The notes under the pieces: generated by a model
Told to the model about the DNA's origin: nothing
The model's database searches: none
Seen by the model: only the letters and a program-made list of their open reading frames with translations
Assembly: GCF_010728155.1 (NCBI RefSeq)
Contig: NZ_AP022605.1
Coordinates: 2,914,001-2,978,000, forward strand
Direction: 5' to 3'
From: Mycolicibacterium doricum
GTDB taxonomy: Bacteria; Actinomycetota; Actinomycetes; Mycobacteriales; Mycobacteriaceae
DNA: 64,000 nucleotides
Made by a program: the position numbers and the translations under genes
Shown here: one piece after another, positions 27,752-33,555 of the stretch
Layout: every line of letters begins with the position of its first letter
Position numbering within the stretch: the first letter of the stretch is position 1

Positions 27752-27819
27752 GTGGCGATTCGGTGACCGTGAGGCCGTCACCATGGCTGCGCTCCGGCCT
27801 TCGGATCACATACAGGCCT

Positions 27820-27839
27820 TTGTGCCCTACCGTCCCTGT
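27820..27839. promoter_or_regulatory. weak DevR/DosR-box-like site
   Basis: By hand alignment about 12 of 20 positions fit the remembered DosR consensus TTSGGGACTWWRGTCCCSAA, mainly the TT start and the right half GTCCC. The site lies at about -44 to -25 of the probable start at 27864, where DevR boxes overlap the -35. Tentative. Confidence 0.25.
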
Positions 27840-27863
27840 GCTCGGCGGGACCATTCTCGAGCG

Positions 27864-28820
27864 GTGACCACGCGCCCCGACGCCGAGACGTTGCGTACCG
27901 CGCTGGCGTCGGCGGTACGGGCCCCGTCGGTGCACAACAGCCGGCCATGGCGTTGGCAGGTCGGCGCCGACCAGCTGGATCTGCTCGCCGTGCCCGATCT
28001 TCGTCTGCATCACGTCGACCCCGGCGGCCGCGACTTCATGCTCAGTTGCGGTGCGACGCTACACCACGCCGTCGTCGCGCTCGCGGCGCTCGGCTGGCAG
28101 GCGCGTGTGCACCGGTTCCCCGAACCCTCGGACCCCGATCACCTTGCGAAGCTGACGTTTTCCCCGCGCCCACCGACCGAACCCGACCTGGCGCTCGCCG
28201 CGGCAATACCGCGCCGGCGCACCGACCGCAGGCGCTACGTCAGCCGCGAGGTCTCCCCCGCCGACATCGCCGTTATGGGGGCACGCGCGGCGCGGGGCGG
28301 GGTGTCGCTGCGCCGGGTGGAGTCGCTGACCGGGCTGCACACCGCCGTGGACCGCGCGGTGCGTGAACACCTGCACGATGACGCCTACCTGCACGAGCTC
28401 ACCAGATGGAGCTTCCGGCACGGGTCGGTGGCCGGCGTTCCGGAGGCCAACGTCGCGCCGGCCGACATCGCCGCCGCGGCACCAACACGACTGTTCGCCG
28501 ACACCCCGATGGCTGCTCCGTCGCCGTCCGCCGACGACCCCGACAACGCGGCGATCCTAGCGCTGGGCACCCGGGACGACGATGCACTGGCCCGGTTACG
28601 CGCCGGGGAGGCGACCAGCGTGGTGCTGCTCACGGCGGCGTCGATCGGCCTGGCCGGATGCCCGGTCACCGAACCGCTGGAGGTGCCCGAGACCCGGGCG
28701 ACGTTGCGCGAGGAGATCTTCGAGTCGCAGGCCCACCCGCAGATGCTGCTCCGCATCGGCTGGGCGCCCGAGGAGGCGGACACACTGCCCGCCACACCGC
28801 GGGGCCCGCTGTCGGTCTGA
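27864..28820 (+). CDS. Acg-family nitroreductase-like FMN-binding protein
   Basis: The 318-residue protein belongs to the Acg/Rv3131 branch of nitroreductase-fold proteins. The N-terminal SAVRAPSVHNSRPWRWQV, the FMLSCGATLHHAVVALAALG segment and RRRTDRRRY are shared with the nitroreductase at 30109. Acg-type proteins are strongly induced by DevR under hypoxia in M. tuberculosis. They have a lid that occludes the FMN site and may sequester FMN rather than reduce nitro-compounds. The GTG at 27864 is used; a CATTCT box 6 nt upstream suggests a leaderless start. It ends exactly where the convergent devS relic ends. Weak DevR-box-like sequence lies upstream. Confidence 0.82.
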   Translation: MTTRPDAETLRTALASAVRAPSVHNSRPWRWQVGADQLDLLAVPDLRLHHVDPGGRDFMLSCGATLHHAVVALAALGWQARVHRFPEPSDPDHLAKLTFSPRPPTEPDLALAAAIPRRRTDRRRYVSREVSPADIAVMGARAARGGVSLRRVESLTGLHTAVDRAVREHLHDDAYLHELTRWSFRHGSVAGVPEANVAPADIAAAAPTRLFADTPMAAPSPSADDPDNAAILALGTRDDDALARLRAGEATSVVLLTAASIGLAGCPVTEPLEVPETRATLREEIFESQAHPQMLLRIGWAPEEADTLPATPRGPLSV

Positions 28821-29440
28821 TCAGGGCAGCGGCGCGCACCACCGCAACAGCGTTCCGCCGCCGGCCCTGCCGCCGACGGTGAATATGCCGGCAGCGTCGT
28901 CCGCCCTGGTGCGCAAGTTGTGCAGTCCGCTCTCGGTGATCGACCCGTCGATGCCGCGGCCGTTGTCGGCCACCTCGATGCACAGGTCGTCGGCGACGGT
29001 GTCCCGCACTGTCAACTCGGTGGCATCGGCGTGCCGGACGGCATTGCTCACCGCTTCGCGCACGACCGCCTCGGCATGGTCGGCCAGCGTCGCGTCGACC
29101 ACCGAGAGCGGTCCGACGAACTGACTGGTGGCGTGCAATCCGGCGCCGGCGAACTGCCCGATCGCCTGGTCGACGCGCTGACGCAGGCGGGTCGCCCCCG
29201 GCGCGCCGCCGCCAAGCTGGATCGCGGTGTGCCCGATGGTGCGCAGCGTGACGTCCAGGTCGAGACCCGCGGTGACGACGAGCATGGCTTCGACCAGCCC
29301 GTCGAGGCGATCGCGCCCTTCGACGAGCTGATCGATGCGGTCCTGCACCTCGGTGAGCAGTTCCCGCAGCCGCAACCCGGACAGAGTGTCGCGCAGGGGA
29401 CGTGGTCCGCGGATTCGTCGGGTCCGACCGGCTCGGTCAC
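28821..29440 (-). pseudogene. devS: devS (dosS) sensor kinase with internal deletion and frameshift
   Basis: The frame begins 9 nt after devR at GTG 29440 (VTEPVGPDESADHV). It shifts at about 29390-29400 into the frame that reads PLRDTLSGLRLRELLTEVQD, the DevS N-terminus. It follows DevS up to VVTAGLDLDVTLRTI, the start of GAF-A, then jumps near 29213-29220 to GGAPGATRLRQRV, which in intact kinases follows the H-box. The heme GAF-A, GAF-B and the His phospho-acceptor (RDLHDHV) are gone, about 370 of some 580 residues. The ATPase domain remains: EAVSNAVRHA (N box), DNGRGI (G1) and the C-terminal GGGTLLRWCAPLP. A 184-residue HATPase-only product from an internal TTG is conceivable. Confidence 0.82.
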
Positions 29441-29449
29441 CCCTGCAAC

Positions 29450-30097
29450 CTAGCCGTCGTCGCGTGTGGGGCGATCGAGCTTCGACACGAACACCGCGGC
29501 CTGGGTGCGCCGTTCCATACCCAGTTTGGTCAGCAGCCGCGACACGTAGTTCTTGACCGTCTTCTCCGCCAGGAACATCCGCGCGGCGATCTGCTTGTTG
29601 GTCAGGCCCTCACCGAGCAGGTCGAGCAGCACCCGTTCCTGGGCGGACAGCCCCGACAGCGGATCCGACCGTTCGGCGTCGCCGCGCAGCTTGGACATCA
29701 GCGCGGCGGCGGCGCGGTTGTCCAGCAGCGAGCGCCCGGCCCCGACGTCCTTGATCGCCTTGGCCAGTTCCATCCCCTTGATGTCTTTGACGACGAATCC
29801 GCTGGCACCGGCGAGGATCGCGTCGAGCAGCGCCTCGTCGGAGGTGAACGAGGTCAGCATCAGGCACCGCAGGTCCGGTAGCCGTGCGAGCAGATCCCGG
29901 CACAGTTCGATGCCGTTGCCGTCGGGCAGCCGCACGTCGAGAACCGCGACGTCGGGTTGCAGTGCGGGGATGCGGGCCAGCGCCGAGGCCACCGAATCGG
30001 CTTCGCCCACCACGTCGAGTTCCGGGTCGGCGCTCAGCAGGTCGGTGAGCCCACGACGCACCACCTCGTGGTCGTCGACCAGAAAGACCCGGACCAT
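29450..30097 (-). CDS. devR: dormancy response regulator DevR/DosR (NarL family)
   Basis: The 215-residue response regulator is nearly identical in pattern to DosR of M. tuberculosis. The receiver has [13 protein letters not shown] (acidic pocket), the phospho-acceptor Asp54 in [13 protein letters not shown] and Lys104 in FVVKDIKG. The C-terminal LuxR-type HTH contains [20 protein letters not shown] and [20 protein letters not shown], with the DNA-contact residues. It controls the hypoxia/NO dormancy regulon. The ATG at 30097 is 11 nt after the nitroreductase stop, so a nitroreductase-devR-devS operon is likely. The gene looks intact, although its partner devS is broken. Confidence 0.95.
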
Positions 30098-30108
30098 GGT
30101 CGACAGTG

Positions 30109-31107
30109 TCACAACCCACGCGGCCGATCGCAAACCTCGTGCCGGACGAACTGCAGGACGTGCTCGAGCGGCCTGCGTGGCGTGGGAGGCGGCACCTGCT
30201 CGACGGCGGGGGCCAACCCGATGCGGATGAGCACCTGCGGCCGCGCCGCCCGCTCGAGCAGCCCGCCGACCAGCGCGCGGCTGGACGGCAGTTCGGTCAC
30301 GTGGGTCACAGTGCAGGTACCCAATCCGGCCATGGTGGCCTCGAGTAGGACCGCCGACATCGCCTCACCGCTGCGCAACGCGTCGAGGCGATCGTCGCCG
30401 TCGGTGGACAGCACCACGATGGTGGCGCGGTCCCCCTCGATGGTCGGCCGCCGCTCGCCGCCCCGGGTGACGGTGAAGCTGCGGCCCAGGTCGACGCGTT
30501 CACTCTCGGCGGCGGACACCAGCGAGCTCTGCGGGATGCCTTCGCCGATCTCGAACGGTGCTGTCCACCAGCCCAGTTCGGCATGGTAGGAGCAGTCGTA
30601 GAGGCGCAGCGCCTCGGTCAGCTGCGAGGCCTCGGCGAGCTCGGGATGGACGTCGTCGGGCAGGACGTCGAGTTGGACGTCGGACTCGAGGCGGGCGCGC
30701 ATCAACGGCTCGAAGGACTCCCAGTCGGGCACGGTCGCCATGGGCAGGCGGTCGGTGCGACGCAAGAGGATCGCGTCCGCGCGCCGGCGATCCGCCTCGG
30801 TGACGAACTCCATCGGTGTCACGGTGACGGTCGCCAAGTGGTCGCGATGGTTACGGTCCGGCAGCCGGTCGATGTGCGCGGTCCATCCGGCGGCAGCCAA
30901 CGAGACGCGCAGATGGTCGAGCACCGCGCCGCAGCTGATCACAGCTTCGCGGCCGGAGCGGTCCGCCGAATGCAACAGTCGCGCCGGGTCGAGGAACAGG
31001 CGGAGCTGGTCGCCCTCGACGACCCAACGCCACGGTTGGCTGTTGTGCAATGACGGCGCGCGGCAGGCCAGTTGGACGGCGTCGCGGATGACCTGGGAAT
31101 CGACCAT
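30109..31107 (-). CDS. Acg/Rv3131-family nitroreductase-like protein
   Basis: The 332-residue protein is a paralogue of the one at 27864. It shares [38 protein letters not shown] and LRRTDRLPM, and has a C-terminal FMN/lid half with [20 protein letters not shown]. These are FMN-fold proteins of the dormancy regulon; M. tuberculosis keeps Rv3131 just next to devRS. It leads the devR operon with only 11 nt before devR. GAAGGC precedes the ATG. A reasonable DevR-box-like site at 31140-31159 lies 33 nt before the start, which would give auto-induction of the regulator. Confidence 0.85.
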
Positions 31108-31139: not shown

Positions 31140-31159
31140 CTAGGGCCTTAGGTCACTCG
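31140..31159. promoter_or_regulatory. candidate DevR/DosR box upstream of the nitroreductase-devR unit
   Basis: By eye 13 of 20 bases fit TTSGGGACTWWRGTCCCSAA, including the uninterrupted core CTTAGGTC and a GGG in the left half. It lies 33-52 bp before the nitroreductase ATG, a suitable promoter position for DevR activation. Confidence 0.4.
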
Positions 31160-32699: not shown

Positions 32700-33527
32700 T
32701 TAAGCGTTCGTGAACTTGCGCAACGACGGCTCGTCGGCCAGGTCCCAGGCGGTGATCCGGTCGCAGATGACGGTTCGCAACCGGCCCTTGTCGAAAATGC
32801 CGTGCTCGGCCATCGCGGCGATCTTGTCGCGGTAGGCGTCGATGTCGGCGCCGACCACGTCGAGTTCCGCCGCACGCTGCGCGATGGCCGCCACGGTCTC
32901 GTCGCGGTGGCTCTGCAGGCAGTGCGCCACCAGGTTGGAGAAGAACATCTCGTGGCGTTCTTCGTCGGCGGCGATGCGGCCGATCAGCGATTTGAGCACC
33001 GGTTCGGTGATCTGGGCTTCGAGGTTGCGGCAGAACACGGCGTGGGAACGCTCGAAGAACGCCATGAACGCCAACGTCTCGATCTGGCTGAAGCGGTCGG
33101 CGCGGTAGCCATTCATCACGTGCTCGACGCGCACGTCCTCGTTGGCGGCCGGGTCCACCTCGCGGGTGACCACGAGGTAGTTGCGCAGCGCGACGGCGTG
33201 CAGGTGCTCCTCGGCGGTCCAGCGGCCGATCCAGCGACCCCACTTTTCCTCGAGGATGAAGTGCTCGACGAGTTCGCGGTGGTAGCCGGCGAGGTTGTCC
33301 TTGGTGATCAAGAGGATCTCGAGCGCGTCGGTGATCTGCTCGGGCAGTGTGACCTGCGACCGATCCCAGTCCCGACCGCCGAGGAACGCGAAGTTCTCAC
33401 CCTGGTCGAACGGCACGTAGTCGTGCGCGTACCACAGGTCCTCGGAGTCGAGGTGGCGCCGCAGTTCGTCCTTGACGACCGGCTCCAGCTCGACGGTGAG
33501 CGCATTAGGAACAGGTTTCTGTGCCAT
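32700..33527 (-). CDS. desA2: acyl-[acyl-carrier-protein] desaturase DesA2
   Basis: The 275-residue soluble diiron desaturase equals M. tuberculosis DesA2 (Rv1094, 275). The iron ligands are carried by ELVEHFILEEKWGRW, TAEEHLHAVALRNYL and ADEERHEMFFSNL (the two ExxH motifs). The enzyme family introduces a double bond into ACP-bound fatty acids, likely on the way to mycolic acids; DesA2 itself may be atypical in metal binding. The ATG at 33527 gives the family start MAQKPVPNALT. A 13-bp palindrome lies 2 nt upstream of the ATG and suggests repressor control. Confidence 0.95.
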   Translation of the reverse strand: MAQKPVPNALTVELEPVVKDELRRHLDSEDLWYAHDYVPFDQGENFAFLGGRDWDRSQVTLPEQITDALEILLITKDNLAGYHRELVEHFILEEKWGRWIGRWTAEEHLHAVALRNYLVVTREVDPAANEDVRVEHVMNGYRADRFSQIETLAFMAFFERSHAVFCRNLEAQITEPVLKSLIGRIAADEERHEMFFSNLVAHCLQSHRDETVAAIAQRAAELDVVGADIDAYRDKIAAMAEHGIFDKGRLRTVICDRITAWDLADEPSLRKFTNA

Positions 33528-33529
33528 CC

Positions 33530-33542
33530 GGTTACAGTAACC
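33530..33542. promoter_or_regulatory. palindromic operator GGTTAC-a-GTAACC in the desA2 promoter
   Basis: The arms pair perfectly around a single base. The palindrome lies between the probable -10 (TACGAT, minus strand, 33556-33561) and the desA2 start codon, covering about +6 to +18, a common repressor position. A TetR-type desaturase regulator such as MadR is a plausible binder (inferred). Confidence 0.5.
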
Positions 33543-33555
33543 CAATCCTGTGGGG

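Follow-up and report, generated by a model that had tools for sequence, protein, structure and literature searches.

Known DevRS systems and the genes around devS1

Kinases of the DevS type are sensors of oxygen and nitric oxide (NO). Natural mutants of the DosS/DosT-DosR system in W/Beijing strains of Mycobacterium tuberculosis, reportedly described by Fallow in 2010, are said to carry a frameshift in dosT while the regulator remains; compared with the devS1 gene treated here, a different kinase is concerned, and no large in-frame deletion. According to passages of a review (PMC4082495), the phosphorylation site of DosS is His395, a kinase domain of 201 residues of this protein is active, and the kinase cores of DosS and DosT are closed and devoid of an ATP lid. 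In M. smegmatis, dosR1, named for its nearness to dosS, is accompanied by a second gene, dosR2, as reported in parts of PMC6898941. The DevS/DosT-like kinase OsdK of Streptomyces coelicolor is single and has two cognate response regulators, OsdR and the orphan SCO3818, in the account given by passages of PMC5069765.

The window, i.e. the whole stretch of 64,000 nt that was analysed, is located on the contig NZ_AP022605.1 of Mycolicibacterium doricum (positions 2,914,001-2,978,000, forward strand), and the coordinates below are positions in this window unless they are assigned to the genome or to a relative. The locus resembles the DevS/DosS-DosT/DevR system of M. tuberculosis by an intact DevR1 (structure 3c3w), by a kinase remnant matching the cores 3zxo and 3zxq and by adjoining genes of the Acg/Rv3131 family. 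The gene numbers are reversed, since the review passages (PMC4082495) give two kinases and one regulator for M. tuberculosis, whereas the genome of the window combines two regulators with a single intact kinase. M. smegmatis is similar in its two DosR genes, a content that fits an arrangement of one sensor with two regulators; unlike here, the parts of PMC6898941 considered make no mention of a kinase remnant. S. coelicolor shares the single kinase with two regulators, but it belongs to another genus, and no decayed second kinase is described in the passages of PMC5069765. Within the listings and passages from which the literature was judged, no published description of this devS1 case was recognised.

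The gene devR1 (29450-30097, minus strand) encodes an intact response regulator of 215 aa from ATG 30097. DevR1 comprises a receiver and a LuxR-type HTH, as do the DevR/DosR response regulators, and it matches the M. tuberculosis DevR structure 3c3w with an E-value of 2.9e-110; the residues D8, D9, D54, T82 and K104 are identical in this alignment. Upstream of devR1 and on the same strand is nitB1 (30109-31107, minus strand), and nitA1 (27783-28820, plus strand) is convergent with devS1. Both encode FMN oxidoreductases of the Acg/Rv3131 family, and the homology of nitA1 to its relatives starts near position 27867. The presence of nitB1 beside devR1 varies among the relatives. It adjoins devR1 in the genomes G152, G191 and G306. 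The interval between devR1 and phoH2 contains a nitB in the window, G152 and G191 and none in G253, G094, G244 and G041. This amounts to a gain or a loss of a gene of the Acg family at this position.

A Dos-box-like palindrome, GTGACCTAAGGCCC (31143-31156, minus strand), was detected upstream of nitB1, at a distance of about 35 bp from its start; the palindrome is weak by its score against the consensus that we assumed for the Dos box. Sites resembling it precede nitB1 in two relatives (G191 and G152) and devR1 in G094; the best-scoring sites ahead of devR1 in G253 include none of this kind. When the stretch ahead of nitB1 in the window was scanned for 20-base sites, the highest score went to a site other than this palindrome. 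Before nitB2 in G253 the same kind of site is strong (17/20), compared with at most 14 in 400 stretches of 200 bases drawn at random from the window. The simple Dos-box pattern has 19 matches in the window for a shuffled mean of 59.8 and is thus not enriched. Elsewhere in the window, the small RNA family ASdes (RF01781) is found at 33142-33209 with 63.7 bits (gathering threshold 40), where it lies within the open frame 32700-33545 (minus strand) in antisense orientation; no Rfam family was found at the devS1 locus.

Structure and conservation of the devS1 remnant

The devS1 remnant is a frame of 184 codons with a TTG start (28821-29375, minus strand), in which 54 N-terminal residues of DevS are joined in frame to the last 130 residues of the protein. 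The 5' part (29214-29375) encodes residues 1-54, which form the N-terminus of DevS and end where GAF-A begins. The 3' part (28821-29213) contains residues 55-184 (29213-28824) and the stop codon, and corresponds to the segment following the H-box and to the ATPase (CA) domain. The first 51 residues display 86-92% identity with the DevS N-termini of three relatives; a protein alignment that placed this N-terminus on a kinase helix was dropped in view of these values, obtained with the N-terminal piece alone. Residues 61-183 match the DevS ATPase-core structure 3zxo (E=1e-44), the ATPase part also matches the DosT core structure 3zxq (6.8e-43), and the Pfam family HATPase_c is recognised with 34.9 bits (cut-off 26.4). 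The sequences EAVSNAVRHA (29028-29057), DNGRG (28953-28967) and GGGTLLRW (28839-28862) of the 3' part are presumably its ATP-site motifs. Neither GAF, the family of the GAF-A heme domain and GAF-B of DevS/DosS, nor HisKA_3, which covers their DHp region and phospho-acceptor histidine, gave a match in the remnant at E<=0.001. The missing part thus comprises GAF-A, GAF-B and the DHp/H-box region with the phospho-acceptor helix: the H-box-bearing segment of the relatives falls inside the deleted stretch, and the counterpart of DosS His395 is absent with it.

The deletion junction (29213/29214, minus strand) was placed by comparison with seven syntenic relatives. In their intact genes, 356-363 codons separate the two joined points (363 in five of the relatives). 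Compared with these five, devS1 has lost about 362 codons (1,086 bp, a multiple of three), one extra codon being kept at the junction; compared with the other two, the loss is of 355-358 codons. An obvious direct repeat was rejected as the cause, since in the five relatives compared the two joined points have no clear stretch in common. Relocation of the deleted segment was also rejected, since the genome holds only one DevS-type match at E<=1e-60. The remnant is 71-79% identical (matched part) to DevS1 of the seven relatives and 63% identical to DevS2 of the same genome, and it is therefore devS1.

A separate lesion affects the ancestral start region (29376-29440, minus strand). The start codon of the relatives aligns with GTG 29440, which in the window opens a frame other than the devS frame, so that both start and frame are disrupted relative to the relatives. 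Free of stop codons back to 29609, within devR1, the devS frame contains upstream of 29375 no ATG, GTG or TTG; TTG 29375 is the first of these codons after the upstream stop, and no Shine-Dalgarno sequence is evident ahead of it. The first-pass annotation, made from the letters of the window, had read here N-terminal residues fused to the region after the H-box, a loss of GAF-A, GAF-B and the dimerisation/His helices, a second lesion shifting the frame near the GTG start, and an adjoining devR intact at its key residues, and the comparisons bear out each of these points. Its description of the 184-codon frame as "HATPase-only" is right for the frame and has to be amended for the content, 54 of the 184 residues being DevS N-terminus.

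All seven relatives examined possess a full-length devS in the neighbourhood seen in the window, phoH2-(nitB)-devR-devS-nitA-fumC-glpX, two of them being partly covered (the stretch of G253 ends before fumC/glpX and that of G306 before phoH2). In G306 (L156, 6762-10350), about 3.6 kb separate devR1 from devS1, and another Acg-like gene lies in this interval. The fragment was also compared with 396 genomes of the genus. At E<=1e-52 it has matches in 22 other genomes, and the frames matched, among which there may be paralogues, are all of at least 554 aa; no second genome with the short form was found at this threshold, which would miss short forms of greater divergence. No other match spans residues 1-184 of the remnant, either among the matches listed for 148 genomes or among 80 loci. 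The idea that the short form is a conserved normal gene, for which the earlier annotation had proposed the alignment with related devS genes, was consequently discarded. A plasmid origin of the locus was rejected as well: the matches of eight plasmid records (seven from Rhodococcus, one from Embleya) cover no more than 43% of the query, with 74-77% identity, and they are response regulators where labelled.

Selection was estimated with a codon model on eight genomes, the window branch being compared with the rest of the tree. For 181 codons of the remnant, omega is 0.092 on the window branch and 0.077 elsewhere (p=0.66); the value 1 is rejected (p=6e-8), and the 95% range of the likelihood profile is about 0.04-0.20. 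For the 127 C-terminal codons, the values are 0.142 and 0.094 (p=0.42), and omega 1 is again rejected (p=0.0003). The neighbours give 0.044 against 0.023 for devR1 (p=0.25), far from 1, and 0.184 against 0.115 for nitA1 (p=0.10). The constraint on the remnant codons indicates either that the loss is recent or that the fragment is still used. If the fragment has been neutral since the deletion, simple arithmetic from the omega figures limits the neutral period to roughly 13% of the branch. Seven remnant sites invariant in the seven relatives are changed in the window, V123D among them, compared with ten such sites in G041, the branch of which is about twice as long.

The second devR-devS operon and the loss of kinases in relatives

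The genome of the window (a single contig of 4,029,398 bases) contains a complete second operon, nitB2-devR2-devS2, at 666.7-670.3 kb. DevR2 (genome positions 667819-668445) is 83% identical to DevR1. DevS2 (genome positions 668543-670261) is a protein of 573 aa with matches to GAF, HisKA_3 and HATPase_c, and it retains the GAF domains, the H-box and the ATPase domain. The pair is flanked by two further Acg-like genes. With one DevS match (E<=1e-60) and two DevR matches (E<=1e-50), the genome has the gene content of one kinase and two regulators. DevR1 is thus not without a DevS-type kinase, and the possibility of a kinase-less regulator was ruled out by this operon. The proposal of the first-pass annotation that DevR1 is driven by another kinase is supported; the candidate is not an orphan DosT, as had been imagined, but the kinase of a complete operon.

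The eight genomes were compared with the same thresholds (E<=1e-60 for DevS, E<=1e-50 for DevR). Two devR and two devS are present in G152 and G244, two devR with devS1 only in G094 and G253, two devR with devS2 only in the genome of the window, and a single devR with a single devS in G191, G041 and G306. In G253 (L170, 6072-8995) and G094 (L171, 6008-8852), devR2 is located between nitB2 and nit2 without devS2, the mirror image of the loss in the window, and the ends of devR2 and nit2 are separated by about 10 bp and 50 bp, respectively. In an unrooted tree built from four genes of the neighbourhood (without phoH2 of G306 and fumC of G253), the window falls between G094/G253 and the rest, of which G152 comes first, with supports of 66, 79, 99, 100 and 100. 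For these eight genomes, the simplest history would be an ancestor with both devR-devS pairs, followed by separate losses of different kinases. Both regulators were kept and either kinase was expendable, which points to one sensor serving two DevRs.

Counts over 148 genomes of the genus (DevR-like at E<=1e-80, DevS-like at E<=1e-120) are rough, as a split devS can be counted twice (G012): DevR-like proteins outnumber DevS-like proteins in 19 genomes, including that of the window, they are equal in number in 100 and fewer in 15, and 14 genomes have neither. The 19 genomes with an excess of DevR, which would fit sensor sharing, are matched by the 15 of the reverse kind, a point against this reading. 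Two other types of devS were encountered. In G012 (L174, 1643-3449) and G044 (L175, 1654-3352), the devS beside devR is split over two frames, by sequencing error or by real decay. In G037 (L176, 2479-3612) and G061 (L177, 2531-3661), DevS-like frames of 377 and 376 aa match DevS2 from residue 229 on only and apparently lack the heme GAF-A; the stretches compared around them gave no match to devR. As a construct of M. smegmatis DosS with GAF-B and the kinase is active under all conditions according to the review passages (PMC4082495), these frames could be gas-blind kinases.

Probable fate of devS1 and probable kinase of DevR1

A kinase without phospho-acceptor and dimerisation helices cannot autophosphorylate, and DevS1, which has lost both, is unable to do so. 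The broken start and the missing phospho-acceptor favour a recent pseudogene. We consider it probable that devS1 is such a pseudogene of a duplicated DevS-type kinase and that DevR1 is served by DevS2. The receivers of DevR1 and DevR2 are identical at 101 of 120 positions (84%), with 13 of 14 in the alpha-1 helix, and the DHp region of DevS2 is identical to DevS1 of the seven relatives at 46-50 of 64 positions; from this likeness between the sequences, DevS2 probably phosphorylates both DevRs. In the corresponding scenario, an ancestor of the eight genomes probably had two devR-devS operons, which lay apart from each other and were both bordered by oxidoreductase genes of the Acg family. In the lineage of the window, as its assembly shows, an in-frame deletion removed about 1.1 kb of devS1 and a separate lesion broke its frame near the start, with devR1 remaining intact and constrained. 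DevS2 would then most likely phosphorylate DevR1, one sensor driving two regulators, and the devS1 fragment itself most likely does nothing. Against the pseudogene, the codons are not significantly relaxed, as expected for a protein still in use, and its status comes from one assembly.

DevR1 could instead receive its phosphate from a kinase other than DevS2 or from acetyl phosphate, or it could work unphosphorylated. Other kinases are present, HATPase_c having 22 matches in the genome including the devS1 fragment. Only two kinases of the genome have HisKA_3 (E<=0.001), however, and the one that is not DevS2, at 655 kb, is 27% identical to DevS2 over 246 residues and adjoins its own NarL-type regulator; considering also the resemblance of the two receivers, we regard such a route as unlikely. 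There is a still smaller chance that the organism has a full-length devS1, or that the frame break alone is an error. The assembly is single, and short frame breaks are common assembly errors. Assembly errors are unlikely, though, to remove 1.1 kb from within a gene and leave its two flanks intact, the missing segment was found nowhere else in the 4.03 Mb (one DevS-type match at E<=1e-60), and no convincing frame break was seen in the neighbour genes, the other multi-frame matches being judged antisense or shadow open frames.

The retained ATPase domain, the in-frame junction and an omega of 0.09 without significant relaxation would suit a functional mini-protein translated from TTG 29375 and acting on the DevR/DevS2 pathway, for instance by binding of the ATPase domain to DevR1 or DevS2 and dampening of the signal. 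The DHp helices and the phospho-acceptor are nevertheless absent, no in-frame ATG or GTG exists, no second genome among 396 has the short form at E<=1e-52, and V123, identical in the seven relatives, is replaced by Asp; such a protein is very improbable. The first-pass annotation had thought of a dominant-negative protein, an idea that finds no positive support in the frames of at least 554 aa of all 22 other genomes matched at E<=1e-52, in the apparent lack of a ribosome-binding site or in the loss of the His helices. As the DosS and DosT cores are closed over the ATP site without a lid in the review passages (PMC4082495) and the remnant lacks the His segment, a dominant-negative action is unlikely. 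A translated and selected ATPase-only decoy, derived from the kinase gene and tuning the one sensor of two DevRs, would likewise be very improbable; if this were true, the omega of 0.09 would reflect real selection rather than recency.

The pseudogene with DevS2 serving DevR1 thus remains our preferred reading. The remnant looks like ordinary gene decay and not like a new device, and the surprise appears to lie in the reciprocal loss with both regulators kept. Descended from an ancestor that probably had two pairs, the lineage of the window lost devS1 and a relative of it devS2, and each retained both regulators. This natural experiment allows a test of whether either sensor can replace the other, and of whether it is the regulators, and not the sensors, that selection maintains.
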